Made by a program: the position numbers and the translations under genes
Notes under the pieces: generated by a model
Databases searched by the model: none
The model's input: the letters and a program-made list of their open reading frames with translations, nothing else
Told to the model about the DNA's origin: nothing
Shown here: in pieces, positions 14,321 through 63,911 of the stretch
Layout of the letters: each line of letters starts with the position of its first letter
Position numbering within the stretch: the stretch's first letter is position 1
Assembly: GCA_022826195.1 (NCBI GenBank)
Contig: JAJDVI010000066.1
Location: 97,577-161,576 of the forward strand
Length of the DNA stretch: 64,000 nt
Source: Acidobacteriota bacterium
GTDB lineage: Bacteria; Acidobacteriota; Vicinamibacteria; Marinacidobacterales; Marinacidobacteraceae
Direction: 5' to 3'

Positions 14321-14770
14321 ATGCCGAGCGTAGAAGCCGGGACGACGATCGCGGCGTCTCCCGAACGCGTCTTCGAGATCGCGACCGATCTCGCGAGCCT
14401 GCCGGAAACGATGTCCGGCATCGACTCGGTCGAGGTCCTGAGCGATGGTTCCTTCGGGAACGGGACGCGCTGGCGCGAGACGCGCACGCTCTACGGCAAG
14501 CAGGCGACCGAGGAGATGTGGGTCACCGGTTTCGACCCACCGCGCTCGTACGTGGTCGAGGCCGAATCGCACGGGGCGCACTACCGGACCGAGATCACCT
14601 TCGTTCCGGAGGGAGACCGCACCCGGGTCACCTTCGTGTTCGGAGCCCGGCCGCTGAGCCTGTTCGCCCGGCTGTTCTCGGTTTTCAGCGGGCTGATGCT
14701 GAAGAGCGTGAGGAAGGCACTCGAGCAGGACCTTGAAGATCTGAAGCGAACGGCGGAGTCGGCCGGCTGA
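14321..14770 (+). CDS. SRPBCC family protein
   Basis: 'EAGTTIAASPERVFEIATDLASLPETMSGIDSVEVLS' and 'GTRWRETR' START-like pattern. Confidence 0.7.
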   Translation: MPSVEAGTTIAASPERVFEIATDLASLPETMSGIDSVEVLSDGSFGNGTRWRETRTLYGKQATEEMWVTGFDPPRSYVVEAESHGAHYRTEITFVPEGDRTRVTFVFGARPLSLFARLFSVFSGLMLKSVRKALEQDLEDLKRTAESAG

Positions 14771-21555: not shown

Positions 21556-21933
21556 GGTTCGAGTCGTTCAGACGGTCGCCGGCTCCTCCGGGAGCGGGAG
21601 GAAAGTCCGAACTCCAGAAGGCAGTGCGCTGGGTAACGCCCAGTCCGGGTGACCGGAAGGAAAGTGCCACAGAAAACAGACCGCCTCTCCCTCCGGGGAG
21701 CGGTAAGGGTGAAAAGGTGCGGTAAGAGCGCACCGCCCGGGCAGTGATGTCCGGGGCACGGTAAACCCCGCATGGAGCAAGACCAAATAGGGAAGCGCCC
21801 GAGGGCCGCCTGTCCGAGCTTCCGGGTAGGTCGCTCGACCCGGCGGGCAACCGCCGGGCTAGATGCATGACCGTCACCCCGCCGCGGGCGACCGCGTCGG
21901 GGAACAGAATTCGGCTTACGAGCGGCTCGGACC
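21556..21933 (+). ncRNA. rnpB: RNase P RNA, bacterial type A-like
   Basis: Conserved segments GAGGAAAGTCCGAAC, CCACAGAAAACAGACC, GGTAAGGGTGAAAAGGTGCGGTAAGAGCGCACCG, GGTAAACCCC, AGATGCATGACCG, ACAGAATTCGGCTTA. P1 arms ggttcgagtcgttc (21556-21569) and gagcggctcggacc (21920-21933) pair fully with G-U wobbles. Confidence 0.95.
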
Positions 21934-33225: not shown

Positions 33226-33238
33226 AGGGCGCGTACGG

Positions 33239-33288
33239 CCTGGAACGCCGGTCTCCAGACCGGCACCGCGGCGCTCCGCGCCGCGCAC
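33239..33288 (+). repeat. Dispersed REP-like double-hairpin element (copy)
   Basis: cctggaacgccggtctccagaccggcaccgcggcgctccgcgccgcgcac: two adjacent palindromes, matching the family consensus elsewhere in the window. Confidence 0.7.
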
Positions 33289-33357
33289 GTCGTAAGGCCA
33301 GTCGCTCTCACGGGCTTGCCAACAGTTCGTAAGACCTCGGAGATGGATCGGATACCA

Positions 33358-37318: not shown

Positions 37319-38587
37319 GTGCGGATCCCACTCGACTACGGAGAGACCGGCCTCGACCTCGTTCTCCCCGCGGACGCCGAGGAGAGAACGACCGTCATCC
37401 GTCCCCGCTTCCCGCCCCCGGTTCCCTCCGCGGAGGCAGCGGTCCGCCGGGCGCTCCGGGCGCCGGACGCCGGCCCGCCGCTCGCGGAGCGCGTCCCCGC
37501 GGGCGCCACGGTGGCCATCTCGGTGTGCGATCCCACCCGGGCGCAGCCGCGGGCGCCGATGCTGCGCGCCATCCTCGAAGAGATCCCGACGCCTCCCGAA
37601 CGCGTGACGCTGCTGGTTGCCACCGGGACCCACCGGCCCGCGACGCCGGCCGAACTCGAGGCCATGTTCGGCAGCGAACTGCTCTCGGCCTGCGAGGTCG
37701 TGAACCACCGCTGCCGGGACGCCTCCGAACTCGTCCGGCTTCCGGACACCGAAGCCGGCGTTCCGGTGCTGCTCAACCGCCGCTTCCTCGAAGCCGACGT
37801 CCGGATCACCACCGGCTTCGTCGAGCCGCACTTCTTCGCCGGCTTCTCGGGCGGGCCGAAGATGGTGGCGCCGGGACTCGCCGGGATGGAGACCATCCTG
37901 GTGCTGCACGACGACCGGCGGATCGGGCACCCGAGCGCGGTCTTCGGCATCACCGAGGGCAATCCCGTCCACGACGACGTCCGGGCGATCGCGCGCCAGG
38001 TCGGCGTGGACTTCGGGCTCGACGTGCTGCTCGACGGAGACAAGCGGATCACCGGGGTGTTCGGCGGCGACCTGCTCGACGAGCACGCCCGGGCGTGCGT
38101 CCGTTCCCACGAGGAAGCGATGTGTCCGGTGGATCAGCCTTTCGAGGTCGTGGTGGCCACGAACTCCGGATACCCGCTCGACCAGAATCTCTACCAGGCC
38201 GTGAAGGGGATGTCGGCCGCGGAACGGATCGTCGAGACCGGCGGGACGATCTTCTGCGCCGCCGAGTGCCGGGACGGCATCCCCGACGAGGGCGCTTATG
38301 CCCGGGCGCTGCGGGCGGGCGGCACCCTGGCCGAGGTGCGCGCGGCGCTCGCCTCGGCCTTGGTCCGCCGTCCGGACGACTGGCAGATCCAGGTCCACTG
38401 CCGGATCCTGGAGCGCGCGAGCGTCGGGCTCCATTCGTCGCTCCCGGAGGACACCGTGCGCGGCGCGCACCTGGAGCCGGTTCCCGATCTGTCGCTCGCC
38501 TGCCGGGAGGCGCTCGAGGCGGCGGGGGAGGGGGCGCGGCTCGCCGTGCTCCCGCACGGGCCCATCACGATCCCCTATCTCGGCTGA
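37319..38587 (+). CDS. LarA-family nickel-dependent racemase/epimerase-like protein
   Basis: 'CDPTRAQPRAPML', 'LLVATGTHRPATPAELEAMFG', 'GFVEPHFFAGFSGGPKMVAPGLAG'. Confidence 0.85.
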   Translation: MRIPLDYGETGLDLVLPADAEERTTVIRPRFPPPVPSAEAAVRRALRAPDAGPPLAERVPAGATVAISVCDPTRAQPRAPMLRAILEEIPTPPERVTLLVATGTHRPATPAELEAMFGSELLSACEVVNHRCRDASELVRLPDTEAGVPVLLNRRFLEADVRITTGFVEPHFFAGFSGGPKMVAPGLAGMETILVLHDDRRIGHPSAVFGITEGNPVHDDVRAIARQVGVDFGLDVLLDGDKRITGVFGGDLLDEHARACVRSHEEAMCPVDQPFEVVVATNSGYPLDQNLYQAVKGMSAAERIVETGGTIFCAAECRDGIPDEGAYARALRAGGTLAEVRAALASALVRRPDDWQIQVHCRILERASVGLHSSLPEDTVRGAHLEPVPDLSLACREALEAAGEGARLAVLPHGPITIPYLG

Positions 38588-38629
38588 CGGGGCGCTATTT
38601 CTCCGCGAGCGCTTCGTTTCCGAGACTGC

Positions 38630-38939
38630 GATATCGACCGCAGCGCGGTCTCACCGGCGTCGATATCGACCCCGGTTCGGCGCCACCGGCGTCGATATCG
38701 ATCCCGGTTCGGAGTCACCGGCGTCGATACCGATCCCGGTTCGGAGTCACCGGCGTCGATATCGACCCCGGTTCGGCGCCACCGGCGTCGATACCGACCC
38801 CGGTTCGGAGTCACCGGCGTCGATACCGACCCCGGTTCGGGGTCACCGGCGTCGATATCGACCCCAGTGCGGGGTCACCGGCGTCGATACCGACCCCGGT
38901 TCGGCGCCACCGGCGTCGATATCGACCCTGGCTCGGACC
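38630..38939. repeat. 32-bp tandem repeat array, 9 full units + 1 partial
   Basis: Units begin at 38630, 38662, 38694, 38726, 38758, 38790, 38822, 38854, 38886, 38918. Consensus gata(t/c)cgaccccggttcgg(cgc/agt/ggt)caccggcgtc. Confidence 0.95.
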
Positions 38940-41327
38940 TTCGTCTGCCTGATCCGGAACCAGCGTCAGGGTCCACTCCGTCGGGCCCGCCAGGAAGGGA
39001 GTCGCCCGGCCCTCCTCCCAGTCCCGGTGGCCCGAGAGGTAGTACGGCATTCCCGGGTGTCCCGACTGTCCTCCCGGCATGTGGAGGATTCCCGTCTCCT
39101 CCCGTCCCGGCGCTACCACGAAGCGGTTCGACGGCCCGTGGTCCCCCACCTGTTTCCGGGGCAGCCCCTCGTCCCCGGGAAGGCTCCGGGGCGAAGCGTC
39201 GAGGAACGGCGAGAGGAGGCGGGAGAGCGGCGGAGGAAGCCCCGGACTCAGCGGGTGCCGGATGTGGACGACGTTCTCGGCGCCCCAAGTGTGCTCCGCG
39301 AGCGGCCCGCCAGCGCGCCCCCGCTCCGCCGCCGCGAGCACCGCCTGCCGGAGCGCGTCGCTCCAGTCCGCCGCGCCCGGCGGCACGAAGTGCGCGGGCG
39401 CTTCCCGCGCCAGCCGGAGCAGCGGCCCGGGCCACTGATTGGCGACCGCCGGGGAGAAGCCGGTCAGCCGATCGGCCGCGGGCGCGGTGAGCGCGCCGTA
39501 CACGCGGCCGAAGAGCTGGAGGCGCGCGTTCCGCACCAGCGGGTAGGCGGCGCTGTCCACGCTCGCCCGGCCCGTCCAGCCTTCCTCGAGGACCCGCCGG
39601 GCTTCCACCGCCAGCGGCTCGCGCGCGCCCTCCAGGGCCTCGAGGAACAACGCGCGCCACACCGCCAGCTCGTCGGCGCGGTCCTCCAGTTGGATGTCCA
39701 GCATCGACGCCTCGTCGGCGGCTTCCACCGCGCGGAGCCGGTCGCGGATGAGGCGCGCCCGCTCGCCGTGGTCGTAGCTGCCGCCCCGCCCGATCCGGTC
39801 GAGGAACGCGCCGTCCACCAGCCGGTTGTTCGCCGTCCAGAGGAGCCCCGCATCGGGGTCCCGGATCACTGGGATCTCCGCGGGCTCCAGGTAGCCGTCC
39901 CAGCTCCGCGCCCCGTCCGCCCAGGACTCCGGAGTCCTTCCGTCGAATCCGCGGCGCCACGGGATCGGCCCGGCGATCGTCCAGCCGATCGAGCCCTCCC
40001 GATCCACGGCGACCAGGTTCTGGGGGGGCATCCCGCTGCCCCAGCCGGCCCGGAACACCTCTTCGATGTTCGATGCCTCTCCGAGTCCCAGGTACGCGGT
40101 CCGGTGGCCCTCGGGGTCGTGCGCGATCCAGCGGATCGCGAGCGGACGACCCCAGCGCCCGGTGACCGGACCCCAGATCGTTTCGCGGACCTCCACGGTC
40201 TCCGAAGGAGCCCCGGCCACCGGAATCTCCTCCTCGAACACCTCCATCCGCCGCCAGCCGTCCGGGGTGCGGTAACGGAGCGGGTCGGCGGGATCGATCT
40301 CCAGCTCCACGAGGTCGGTCCAGTCCCCGCCCGAGTTCGTGAATCCCCACGCCACCCTCCCGTTGCTCCCCGCGATCACCGCGGGAACACCCGGCAGGGT
40401 CAGTCCCCGGAGGCGCAGGTCGCCGACGTGCAGCTCGGCGCGGTACCAGATGTTCGGGACCCGGAGCGGCAGGTGCATGTCGCTCGCCATCAGCGCCACC
40501 CCGCCCGCCGTGCGCCCGGGCGCCACCGCCCAGGAGTTGCTCCCGGAGACGGGAGGAGGTGGGCGCGGTGGACCGGGGCCGCCCGGCCGGACGCCGGCGA
40601 AGGCCGCGGGCCCCGGAATCTCGGGGACCGCGAACGCCTCGCCCTGCAGCGGGGCGTCCCGGTCGGTCCCCGGCGGATTCAGGAACGCCGCGAGTTCGGG
40701 CGGCAGCGCCGCCTCGAGGGCTGCGGTCCTCGCCTCGTGGGCCCCCTCCTCGTCGTTCAGGACCAGATACATCGCCACGACCGTGAGGAGGGAATCGGCG
40801 ACCCGCCAGGGCGCCGGGTCCTGCCCGAGCAGCAGGTACTCGAACGGTGGCGCCGACAGATCGGCGAGACCGGCGGCGATCCCGTCCCGGTACGCCTCGA
40901 AGGTCCGCCACGCATCGGCGGGCAGCGCCCGGGCGGCCCGTTCGGTCCGGGTCCGCATGCGGTGGAGACGCGCCTCCCGGTCCACCCCGACGGCCGCCCC
41001 TCCCACCAGTTCGGCCAGTTCCCCCGCCGGCTGCCGCCGCTGCAGGTCCATCTGGAAGAACCGTTCCTGCGCGTGGAGATAGCCGAGCGTCCGCAGCGCG
41101 TCGCGCATCGTCTCCGCCCGGATGCGAGGGATCCCCAGCCGGTCCCGCTCCACCGCGACCGGGGCCGAGAGCCCCGGCAGCGTCACGGCGCCGCTCAGCA
41201 CCGGCCGGCTGGCGCGCAGCCGGCCCTGGACGTACAGGCCGGCCGCCAGTGTCACGCCCAGCGCGGCGGCCAGGACACCCGCCGCGGCGAGCGCGATCCG
41301 GCGTCTTTTGGTCGTGGGTCCGGGCAT
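38811..41327 (-). CDS. Penicillin acylase family protein (Ntn hydrolase)
   Basis: 'VERDRLGIPRIRAETMRDALRTLGYLHAQERFFQMDLQRRQPAGELAELVG'; autoprocessing 'VSGSNSWAVAPGRTAGG'; 'NTNSGGDWTDLVELEI'-like segment. The C-terminus runs into the repeat array. Confidence 0.9.
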   Translation of the reverse strand: MPGPTTKRRRIALAAAGVLAAALGVTLAAGLYVQGRLRASRPVLSGAVTLPGLSAPVAVERDRLGIPRIRAETMRDALRTLGYLHAQERFFQMDLQRRQPAGELAELVGGAAVGVDREARLHRMRTRTERAARALPADAWRTFEAYRDGIAAGLADLSAPPFEYLLLGQDPAPWRVADSLLTVVAMYLVLNDEEGAHEARTAALEAALPPELAAFLNPPGTDRDAPLQGEAFAVPEIPGPAAFAGVRPGGPGPPRPPPPVSGSNSWAVAPGRTAGGVALMASDMHLPLRVPNIWYRAELHVGDLRLRGLTLPGVPAVIAGSNGRVAWGFTNSGGDWTDLVELEIDPADPLRYRTPDGWRRMEVFEEEIPVAGAPSETVEVRETIWGPVTGRWGRPLAIRWIAHDPEGHRTAYLGLGEASNIEEVFRAGWGSGMPPQNLVAVDREGSIGWTIAGPIPWRRGFDGRTPESWADGARSWDGYLEPAEIPVIRDPDAGLLWTANNRLVDGAFLDRIGRGGSYDHGERARLIRDRLRAVEAADEASMLDIQLEDRADELAVWRALFLEALEGAREPLAVEARRVLEEGWTGRASVDSAAYPLVRNARLQLFGRVYGALTAPAADRLTGFSPAVANQWPGPLLRLAREAPAHFVPPGAADWSDALRQAVLAAAERGRAGGPLAEHTWGAENVVHIRHPLSPGLPPPLSRLLSPFLDASPRSLPGDEGLPRKQVGDHGPSNRFVVAPGREETGILHMPGGQSGHPGMPYYLSGHRDWEEGRATPFLAGPTEWTLTLVPDQADEGPSQGRYRRRWRRTGVGIDAGDPALGSISTPVTPNRGRYRRR

Positions 41328-41351
41328 GCCGTGGGTATTCTCCCGGCGCTC

Positions 41352-42251
41352 ATGCGAACCCGCGCCGGACGCCACCGAATTCTGCGCCTGGTCCTCGCGT
41401 TTCCGCTTGTCGGGGCCGTACCCCCGGCGCTCGCCCAGACCGCGGACGCTCCCGCGCGGGACCGCTGGACCGGCCAGGCCAACCTGAACCTCGCGGGTTC
41501 CTACGGGAACGCCGGCTCGGGTTCGCTCGGGGTGAGCGCGGCGGCGGCGCGGCAGACCGGCTGGCTGCGCGTGGCGCTCGAGGGCGGCCTCCTCCGGACC
41601 AGCACCGACACCGTGACCCGAGAGGCCTTCGGCACCCCGGACGCCTTTTCGGTACAGCGGACGGTGGAGAGCCAGACCTCGGCGGACCGCACCCACCTTC
41701 GCGCGCGCTTTTCGGAGCCGTCCCCCGAAGACGGGGACACGAGTCCCCGGTTCTTCGCCGCTGCCGGCTGGGAACGGGACGCCCCGGCGGGGGTGCGTTC
41801 CCGTTTCGACCTGACCGTCGGGATGGGCACCGCCTGGGGCCGCACCCGGGCCGGAGGGCGGCGTCCCTTCGAGACCAGTCTGGGGCTGTCCGCAATTCAC
41901 CAGAGCGACGAGGTCGCCGATCCCGGCGTGGAGACGGCGTCCCTCGGCCTGCGGTTCGACGTGCGCGCCCAGACCCGCTACCGCACCGCCGACCTCACGC
42001 TGGTCTCCGCCTCGACCTGGAACCTGCGGAACACCGACGACCTCCGGCTGGACGTCACCGGTTCGGCGTCGCTGCCGCTGTCGGAGCGGCTCGCCTTCCG
42101 CACCAGCGTGCAGACGCTGTTCGATTCGCGTCCCTCGCTGGAGCGGCTGAGCCTCTTCCCGGTTCCCGGACAGCCTGCCTTGGGCACCGTGGTCGCACCC
42201 CGGCGGGGGATCGACCTCATCATCCTCGCGGCCCTGGTGATCCGGTTCTAG
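41352..42251 (+). CDS. DUF481-like outer-membrane protein
   Basis: Signal peptide; 'WTGQANLNLAGSYGNAGSGSLGVSAAAARQTG'; alternating barrel pattern and C-terminal 'LIILAALVIRF'. Confidence 0.65.
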   Translation: MRTRAGRHRILRLVLAFPLVGAVPPALAQTADAPARDRWTGQANLNLAGSYGNAGSGSLGVSAAAARQTGWLRVALEGGLLRTSTDTVTREAFGTPDAFSVQRTVESQTSADRTHLRARFSEPSPEDGDTSPRFFAAAGWERDAPAGVRSRFDLTVGMGTAWGRTRAGGRRPFETSLGLSAIHQSDEVADPGVETASLGLRFDVRAQTRYRTADLTLVSASTWNLRNTDDLRLDVTGSASLPLSERLAFRTSVQTLFDSRPSLERLSLFPVPGQPALGTVVAPRRGIDLIILAALVIRF

Positions 42252-44395: not shown

Positions 44396-44527
44396 CGGGA
44401 GCGCCGGTCTTCAGACCGGCACCGCCGAGCGCAGCGAGGCGAAACAGCAACCGCCGATCGAGGAGACCGGAGCGCCTCGGAGCGCCGGCCTCCGGCCGGC
44501 ATCGCGGCCCGGCAGGGCCGCGAAAGG
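44396..44527 (+). repeat. Two adjacent copies of the dispersed REP-like element
   Basis: 44396-44445 gcgggagcgccggtcttcagaccggcaccgccgagcgcagcgaggcg and 44477-44527 tcggagcgccggcctccggccggcatcgcggcccggcagggccgcgaaag. Confidence 0.75.
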
Positions 44528-50970: not shown

Positions 50971-52560
50971 TCAGCGGCTCGGACCGTAATCCCGGTCGCG
51001 CGTGGGACGGAGCCCGCGCATCACCTCCAGAGTTCGTTCAAAGTGTCGACGAGCGTCTTGTAATCCTGGGCCAAGTGTGTCACTCGCTCGTCGAGCCGCT
51101 CGGACTGCCGCCGCCAGATTGCGCTCTCGGCGTCCTGCCGCTCGATTCGCTGCCGCAAGGTCGCGATCTGCTCGGCCTGCTGCTCGACTTGCAGCCGCAA
51201 GGTCTTGATCTGCGCGGCTTGCTGCTCGACCTGCTCGCCGTGCTGCCGCTGTTCCCTCTCGAACTGCGCGGACAACCTCGCGAAGGCCGCTGTCTGCCGC
51301 TCCTGTAGCTCGCTCATACAACTCCCTCACTCGCTCGACAGCTTCAAGGCAGGCCGCCCGCGCACGGTCCAGGGCGGATGGTCCAGCGTCCCGTCCGGCA
51401 GAACCACGAACCGCTCCCCGTCGATCTCCCGCAGCGTCACGCCCCAGGTTGTGCCCTCGATCTCGACCAGGGTCTCCCGAGCGTGATCGATCTGCACCGT
51501 CAGCGCCGCCAGGGTTTCGATCCGGCTCTGGATCTCCGCCGACAACCAGTGCATCAGCCCCCAGCTCCCGCCGCTGAACCCGAGAAAAAGGCTCAGGCCG
51601 ACCACCAGGGGCCGCAGCCACGCGTTCAGAAGCATCACGCGTATCCGCGCGACCGTCACCGCCGTATCGCTTTCGATGGTACGCAGCGCGTCGTTCGCGA
51701 TGGCGCGCAAGTTCGCGCCAAGCCGCCGCAGCTCGCTCGCCGCCGTCTCCTCGAACTGCCGGCGTTCGGCCGCCATCCGGCTCCGCAGGCGGGCGGTCAA
51801 GTCGTTCGGGTTGGAAGTCCTGCTCATACAGCGCTCCTTTCAGCCGCCACCGCTTTCCGCTGTCGGGATCGCGGGCGGTCAGGTAGTCCTTGCCCTGGCG
51901 GGGCACTTCGAAGCCGGCCTCCTCCAGGGAGGCGACCACATCGGCGCGGCTCCGCACCGCGCCGTGCTCGACGCGCTGCAGGAGGTAGTCGCGGATCAGC
52001 TCGCGCGGGCCGGCTTCGTGCTCGAGGCCGGCCCGCAGCTTCGCCGCCTCCAGGTAGGCGCGGTGGCCCGGCTGGTGCGCTCGGGCGTGCGCCGGGTCGT
52101 CGGGCCGGCTCCAGCCGTGCTGTTGGTTGAAGGCGTCGCGCAGCGCGTCGAAGGTCGCCTGCCAGCCGGGGGGCGCGATGTTCAGGCTGCGGCCCGTCTC
52201 CAGGTCGCAGCGGGCGGTGAGGACGTGCACGTGGACGCCGTCGCCCTCCTCCCGGTGCAGGACCGCGGTCCAGGCATAGCGGTCCGGCTCCAGTCCCGCC
52301 CAGGCCGTCTTCTCGAACTCGTCGAGGACGGCCCCGATCTGGTCGTCGGTCGGGCGGTCCTCCGGCGCCCACGCGATCACGCCCGAGGTGTACTTGTGCT
52401 CGAAGTCCAGCGAGTCAGCGACGGCGGCCACCTGGTCCGGGTCGCCGCGCAGGACCTCGATGCCCGGACGCACCCGCCCGGCGGAGTCGCGTTCGCCGAC
52501 GAGGTAGTCGGCGGCGGCGCGGGCGGAGCCGGTGCCGCGCGCGGCGAAGCTAATGTGCAT
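50971..52560 (-). CDS. mobA: MobA/MbeA-like relaxase (MOBP, ColE1-like)
   Basis: 'MHISFAARGTGSARAAADYLVGERDSAGRVRPGIEVLRGDPDQVAAVADSLDFEHKYTSGVIAWAPED' aligns by eye with ColE1 MbeA (ARGxG...DYLLG...VLQGKPEEV...YAKKYTSGVLSF); 'HREEGDGVHVHVLTARCDLETG' metal-binding region; 'RLKGALYEQDF'. Confidence 0.88.
   Translation of the reverse strand: MHISFAARGTGSARAAADYLVGERDSAGRVRPGIEVLRGDPDQVAAVADSLDFEHKYTSGVIAWAPEDRPTDDQIGAVLDEFEKTAWAGLEPDRYAWTAVLHREEGDGVHVHVLTARCDLETGRSLNIAPPGWQATFDALRDAFNQQHGWSRPDDPAHARAHQPGHRAYLEAAKLRAGLEHEAGPRELIRDYLLQRVEHGAVRSRADVVASLEEAGFEVPRQGKDYLTARDPDSGKRWRLKGALYEQDFQPERLDRPPAEPDGGRTPAVRGDGGERAAAAWRELARHRERRAAYHRKRYGGDGRADTRDASERVAAAPGGRPEPFSRVQRRELGADALVVGGDPEPDRNPGGADGADRSRSGDPGRDRGHNLGRDAAGDRRGAVRGSAGRDAGPSALDRARAACLEAVERVRELYERATGAADSGLREVVRAVREGTAAARRAGRAASRADQDLAAASRAAGRADRDLAAANRAAGRRERNLAAAVRAARRASDTLGPGLQDARRHFERTLEVMRGLRPTRDRDYGPSR
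51021..51317 (-). CDS. mobD: MbeD/MobD-like coiled-coil mobilization protein nested in mobA
   Basis: 98 aa, heptad-rich 'EQVEQQAAQIKTLRLQVEQQAEQIATLRQRIERQ'; SD gagggag before ATG; frame +1 relative to mobA. Confidence 0.65.
   Translation of the reverse strand: MSELQERQTAAFARLSAQFEREQRQHGEQVEQQAAQIKTLRLQVEQQAEQIATLRQRIERQDAESAIWRRQSERLDERVTHLAQDYKTLVDTLNELWR
51327..51827 (-). CDS. mobB: MbeB/MobB-like membrane-anchored mobilization protein nested in mobA
   Basis: 166 aa with a TM segment 'LRPLVVGLSLFLGFSGGSWGLMHWL'; SD aaaggag 6 nt before ATG; frame +1 relative to mobA. Confidence 0.7.
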   Translation of the reverse strand: MSRTSNPNDLTARLRSRMAAERRQFEETAASELRRLGANLRAIANDALRTIESDTAVTVARIRVMLLNAWLRPLVVGLSLFLGFSGGSWGLMHWLSAEIQSRIETLAALTVQIDHARETLVEIEGTTWGVTLREIDGERFVVLPDGTLDHPPWTVRGRPALKLSSE

Positions 52561-52900: not shown

Positions 52901-53076
52901 GAGGGGGTTCGGGGGGCGTTGCCCCCCGTCCGCGCACTGCTCCGGCAGCGGCGCGGTGGACCGGGGGTTCGGGGGGTGGCACCCCCCGTCCGGCCGCTGC
53001 TCCCGCAGCGGCGGATGCCGGGGGTTCGAAGGGGGGCGCTGCGCCCCCTCGCCAGTCCCAATGTATAGACATTGGG
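52901..53076. promoter_or_regulatory. Candidate oriT region
   Basis: Three ~60-bp-spaced gggggttcg + C/G hairpin units (52901, 52961, 53018) followed by a perfect inverted repeat cccaatgt-atag-acattggg (53057-53076), between mobC and HU. Confidence 0.55.
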
Positions 53077-63848: not shown

Positions 63849-63864
63849 CGGCGTCCGGAACCGC

Positions 63865-63911
63865 TTGGAACGCCGGCTTCAGCCGGCACAGCGGCCCGCA
63901 GGACCGCCGCA
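63865..63911 (+). repeat. REP-like element copy
   Basis: ttggaacgccggcttcagccggcacagcggcccgcaggaccgccgcag. Confidence 0.65.

Follow-up and report, generated by a model that had tools for sequence, protein, structure and literature searches.

What is the 32-bp tandem array that lies where two convergent genes meet in this DNA, and is it peculiar to one locus or a member of something larger? The array is found in the window, i.e. the whole stretch of 64,000 nucleotides that was analysed, and the features at the locus are as follows.

37319-38587, forward strand: larA-like gene (Pfam Lar_N and LarA_C), whose end is 42 bp ahead of the array
38629-38937, forward strand: 32-bp tandem array of 9.7 copies with consensus CGATATCGACCCCGGTTCGGAGTCACCGGCGT, reported by TRF
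38653-38676, unstranded: exact near-palindrome ACCGGCGTCGATATCGACCCCGGT, one of two copies, 22 of 24 positions self-complementary
38749-38772, unstranded: second exact copy of ACCGGCGTCGATATCGACCCCGGT
38811-41375, reverse strand: penicillin amidase-family gene (Pfam Penicil_amidase), with its stop at 38811 inside the array

An earlier note on this DNA had described a 32-bp tandem array with a triplet (cgc, agt or ggt) that varies in a mosaic way, and both descriptions are borne out. The period is 32 bp over 9.7 copies, there are no indels, the CGATAYC boxes start at 38629 + 32k (k = 0 to 9), and the TRF score of 450 compares with scores of at most 79 across 20 triplet-shuffled windows. The near-palindrome that was claimed for each junction is exact at two junctions only (38653 and 38749); the other units have GATACC, CGATCC or CCCAGT instead, and one position of the box is split 5:4 between T and C. 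That a palindrome or cruciform defines the array was rejected, since there are just these two exact copies in the window and the palindrome is not common to the array family described below. It had further been stated that all reading frames are largely open. This holds for the forward strand, where the three frames are open except at the ends, but the reverse strand has recurrent TGA stops wherever the triplet is agt or ggt, the variable triplet setting TGG versus TGA in the reverse-strand frame. A coding repeat was rejected as well; the period is no multiple of 3, the arrays sit in gaps between predicted genes, and the acylase extension is an overrun. A CRISPR array was likewise rejected, as the units follow each other head-to-tail with no unique spacers.

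The overrun also modifies the description of the locus. The larA-like gene on the forward strand and the acylase gene on the reverse strand do flank the array, as had been noted, but the array is not confined to the space between them, for the acylase frame enters it and stops at 38811. In six sister species the acylase protein ends in ...TLTLVPE*. The ancestral stop has been lost in the source genome (G000) and in G003, and the protein runs on into the array, gaining an array-encoded extension (GRYRRR...; 38811-38930 of the window, reverse strand) whose length is about 46 residues in G000 and 14 residues in G003. The larA/acylase intergene of a sister genus (G008, L155:1521-3365) is about 1.8 kb long and, in place of an array, contains small predicted genes whose coding repeats are 33 bp long.

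Similar intergenic tandem arrays occur throughout the genus, and the one in the window is a member of this family. The genus is made up of uncultured Acidobacteriota MAGs, of which eight species were sampled, and judging from the record names it probably lives with sponges. Probing with a pair of TCGATAWC boxes at a distance of 19-49 bp gives between 6 and 157 matches per genome in all eight genus genomes, none in the sister genus G008 and 0-4 in four genomes of the order's other family; the reversed two-box pattern gives 0 matches. With a triple-box probe, 193 genomes of the class yield matches in all eight members of the genus and in two of the 185 others. Among about 85,000 named species, strong multi-match records are found mainly in uncultured Acidobacteria MAGs (e.g. 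SB0661_bin_8, SB0668_bin_14, p16x43bins.1, p16x63bins.69, jk18x1bzbins.64, RHO1_bin_67 and bin61); a few other taxa, such as Spirulina and Prevotellaceae, give multi-match records as well. The source genome carries related arrays on contigs C28, C34, C42, C58 and C99. A survey of 464 kb of it, comprising 400 kb picked regardless of arrays and the window, reported eight tandem repeats, of which four belonged to the family and four lacked the box. Arrays of up to about 40 units occur in the family, and tens of small arrays may be spread across one genome. A search of relatives for arrays and for variation in copy number had been proposed in the earlier note; arrays are present in all eight species, and copy number differs between orthologous sites. 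The array is thus not a relic present once and lacking conservation in relatives. Tandem repeats of other kinds are found in the sister genera (70 bp x 9 in G009, L325:13170-13798; 35 bp x 4.5 in G008, L337:5188-5344), so the whole family to which these organisms belong may be prone to minisatellites.

The sequence of the arrays turns over at conserved positions. At the larA/acylase intergene an array is found in eight of eight species, and the box is of the type GTCGATAWC in G000, G003, G001 and G006, GTGTCTATTTC in G002, G005 and G007, and GCGACATGT in G004. The register of about 32 bp persists at this site despite the species turnover of the array sequence. G000 and G003 have flanks that are 99% identical, and their copy numbers are 9.7 and 3.7. 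A change of box can also be followed within a single array. The C58 locus of the source genome has an ortholog in G007 in which a GTCTATTT-type box switches to a CGATAG-type box, and since the steps are 31, 32, 31 on one side of the switch and 31, 32, 32 on the other, the register continues over it.

The array family is linked to a REP-like element, a connection that is absent from the earlier note. A dispersed element of about 62 bp (GGCTTGGAACGCCGGTCTCCAGACCGGCACCGCGGCGCTCCGCGCCGCGCACGTCGTAACGC) is found in the genus and folds as a stable double hairpin. Seven of the eight genus genomes have at least 46-55 scored matches each, and G001, which is 66% complete, has at least 24. Outside the genus there is one match in G008 and there are 30 weaker ones in G009; the four genomes of the order and the single one of the class that were scored have none. 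The window contains the following copies.

33237-33299, forward strand: double-hairpin REP-like copy, not adjoining the array
44398-44441, forward strand: partial REP-like copy
63863-63907, forward strand: partial REP-like copy

Each genus genome has one or two genes for a Y1 transposase (Pfam PF01797), and inverted copies of the double hairpin bracket this gene in G001, G005 and G006; in G000 a hairpin is visible on one side only, because the contig ends. The transposase has the motifs MPNHVHVL and NPVKAGLCERxEDWPWSS, which RAYTs have too. As it brackets a RAYT-type gene, the hairpin behaves as a REP element, and it is found as a many-copy dispersed extragenic palindrome. As regards the unpaired GTAG or CGTC tag that marks one end of REPs, CGTC is present after the second hairpin (GCGCACGTCG), but within a stretch that may form a third stem, CGTCGT...ACGACG.

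The double hairpin lies close to the arrays, which often begin 12-60 bp from it or within it. The junctions are oriented: 27 of 30 have the GTAACGC end of the hairpin facing the array, and of the three discordant ones two are due to one hairpin lying between two arrays and one to a repeat outside the family. An array standing beside REPs in a defined orientation is what links the family to BIMEs, though the window copy itself lacks an adjoining REP. No hairpin adjoins this array in G000 or G003, and one does so in the orthologs of G002, G004, G005 and G007. Inspection of the junctions by eye showed arrays running in either direction with respect to the REP, which speaks against a fixed array direction. 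Hairpins on both sides of an array are found at one locus only, G000:C58, which thus has the order hairpin-array-hairpin; in G006 the same locus is an empty site with neither array nor REPs. An all-against-all comparison of the array ends away from the REP gave no clear conserved signal beyond orthologous flanks.

The feature common to the arrays is a directional box, usually GTCGATAWC, in which mostly CGATAWC follows a lineage-specific half of 5-9 bp (TCCGGT, CACCGGCGT, CACCCAT, CTTAGGT or CTGGGGT). A second short block near GTCGGC is found in most 32-bp units. The unit is itself no palindrome or hairpin of the REP kind, the GGTCGATAAC boxes being directional and several arrays folding with z > 0. 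Across the genus, successive boxes are spaced 20-22 bp apart in 117 cases, 31-35 bp in 313 and 53-55 bp in 49; spacings of 63-66, 74-75, 86 and 95-97 bp occur as well, and 41 bp was seen once. The longer spacings are sums of about 21 and about 32 bp, and many arrays alternate 21+32, 20+33, 21+33 or 20+34, both spacings being mixed within one array. Two helical turns of DNA measure close to 21 bp and three close to 32 bp, and boxes placed every two or three turns have their neighbours on roughly the same face of the DNA. The phasing thus suggests a same-face arrangement, but as the arrays may have a common ancestry it is suggestive and no proof.

The boxes are also usually better conserved than the rest of the unit. 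Conservation is 0.96 in box columns versus 0.88 elsewhere (Wilcoxon p = 0.0009; 14 arrays, aligned on non-box columns), a comparison in which the boxes were defined with the arrays already in view and the box had served as the probe for most of the 14, so that the sample favours arrays with intact boxes. Among arrays located by synteny only, the box window ranks 1 of 64 unit rotations in G004 and G002, 2 of 64 in G005 and 4 of 64 in G007, and 3 of 32 in G001 and 4 of 32 in G006. The window array is an exception, its box register ranking 11 of 32 with no special conservation of the box. The idea of helically phased sites on one face, which had been put forward from the window array, thus gains support from the genus-wide spacing clusters and the box conservation, but not from the box rank of the array that gave rise to it.

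The strands of the window array fold strongly as RNA (z = -8 and -11), while several other arrays have no fold excess (z = +0.3 to +3.9 in G001:C137 and above 0 in C113), and this difference speaks against a function that the arrays share as RNA hairpins or cruciforms. If the array were a transcription terminator, an insulator or a set of mRNA 3'-end hairpins between convergent genes, the fold of the window array and the stable double hairpin of the adjoining element would be in line with this, as would the gene context, which is convergent at 8 of 23 scorable array loci versus 17% of background gaps (p = 0.04). Such a role is nevertheless quite unlikely, since folding is not a property of the family, the units have no trailing T-run, and at least half of the loci have tandem or divergent genes. 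Indeed, arrays occur in all gene orientations, and of the association with convergent ends proposed earlier only a mild enrichment is left. The test for intrinsic terminators found no T-run in the units and no structure kept in orthologous arrays, and the earlier suggestion of palindromes acting in termination finds no support, several arrays being devoid of fold excess and the GGTCGATAAC box being no palindrome. Rfam covariance models run against the window and four array loci gave a single match, the RNase P RNA of Bacterial class A (RF00010, 309.9 bits) at 21560-21933 of the window on the forward strand, and thus no known RNA family for the array.

The reading that we prefer, with a confidence that is evenly poised, is that the arrays are REP-linked, BIME-like intergenic elements, whose phased directional boxes on one face of the DNA bind a putative sequence-specific protein. 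This draws on features that were observed, namely the family itself, its phasing, the conserved boxes, the turnover at orthologous sites with the register kept, the oriented REP junctions, the REP-bracketed transposase gene and the empty site in G006. A candidate DNA-binding protein of the genus, such as a silencing protein or one that organises the nucleoid, would dock cooperatively on the boxes. Slippage or unequal recombination would lengthen and shorten the arrays, and array types would travel from locus to locus with the REP hairpins, the resident RAYT-type (Y1) transposase being a plausible agent. It counts against this reading that the window array has an unremarkable box rank and no adjoining REP in G000 or G003, that a single locus has REPs on both sides, that the use of the box as a probe favoured arrays with intact boxes, and that a unit length near 32 could persist simply through shared ancestry of the arrays. 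The last point is also the core of the main rival, in which the arrays are a non-functional minisatellite whose 32-bp (and 21-bp) unit hitch-hikes with REPs, is spread and made uniform by slippage and transposase copying and owes its constant period to inheritance. The fast turnover of units, the change from 9.7 to 3.7 copies between near-identical flanks of G000 and G003, the presence of arrays in every gene orientation, the empty allele in G006, the overrun of the acylase C-terminus and the different tandem repeats of G008 and G009, with periods of 30, 35, 70 and 75 bp, all agree with a minisatellite, and we regard it as a tentative possibility to be taken seriously. It is opposed by the conservation of box columns above that of the spacers, by the two spacings of 21 and 32 bp that are both near whole turns and mixed in one array, and by the register that persists over box switches.

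As direct repeats with spacings of about 21 and 32 bp, the arrays are reminiscent of plasmid iterons, and together with the many copies per genome this could point to sites for replication or partition (parS- or Rep-like). The dispersal over many contigs and dozens of ordinary intergenic sites, the orthologous chromosome positions and the box sequence, which is not constant, make iterons very improbable. That the arrays are an artefact of assembly was rejected and has next to no probability. Contigs do end inside arrays (e.g. G000:C42 and C99; G005:C185, C207 and C83), but this is the expected effect of real repeats on short-read assembly, and independent MAGs from different projects have arrays at the same orthologous site. 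MAG contigs that break exactly inside arrays include L161, L159, L178, L179, L152, L150, L168 and L074; true copy numbers are therefore underestimated, and the arrays limit assembly.

Among known systems, REPIN-RAYT consists of dispersed extragenic hairpins and a Y1 tyrosine transposase (Bertels and Rainey, 2011, PMC3116915; Di Nocera, 2013, PMC3733652), and most REPs are not associated with other repeats (PMC3733652). The genus resembles it in having hairpins that flank a low-copy Y1 transposase gene, and tandem clusters of REPINs are known (PMC3116915, PMC3733652); here, however, the tandem unit is an unrelated box sequence adjoining the REP and not the REP itself. Bacterial VNTR/MIRU minisatellites are likewise intergenic tandem repeats that change in copy number, but the present arrays share one box genus-wide at dozens of loci, mix periods of 21 and 32 bp and have oriented REP junctions. 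The BIME, RIP and RIB elements of enterobacteria are pairs of REPs, with an IHF site between them in E. coli. Like these, the arrays belong to intergenic composites of inverted REP hairpins and (here putative) protein-binding motifs at many sites. They differ in being long tandem arrays of directional 21/32-bp boxes that are not IHF-like, in that one REP is usually missing, and in their occurrence in Acidobacteriota. A search of one literature library on tandem repeats of sponge Acidobacteria and on phased intergenic arrays gave no match to long, phased, fast-turning arrays attached to REPs.

In eukaryotic satellites, such as alpha satellite with its CENP-B box, the unit sequence turns over while the unit length and the protein box persist. 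By analogy, the species turnover at conserved positions with constant unit length and box may be compared with satellite DNA, the difference being that here tens of small arrays of 32-bp units are spread across a bacterial genome and the binding protein is only putative. That the arrays are a bacterial counterpart of satellite DNA, in which the box and its putative cognate protein would co-evolve with the 21/32-bp register held, as a genus-specific nucleoid-organising or silencing system, seems rather doubtful to us.

REPs and BIMEs are among the commonest intergenic repeats of bacteria, and the reason why some carry internal motifs is unclear. The eight related species form a natural series in which loci and spacing stay the same and the box changes, and to which a linked transposase and one empty site belong as well. 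Should the boxes bind a protein, the genus would have a fast-evolving form of bacterial chromatin whose candidate sites are clear; should they bind none, the arrays would be a clean minisatellite that rides on a transposase-linked hairpin and even overruns the stop codon of a gene.

Two more short tandem repeats, unrelated to the array family, are found in the window at 51095-51230 (42 bp x 3.2) and 52903-53028 (60 bp x 2.2). Contig G002:C54 (L166:1-131 and 14519-14567) has a C-rich start and ends in a G-run, which is probably a sequencing artefact.
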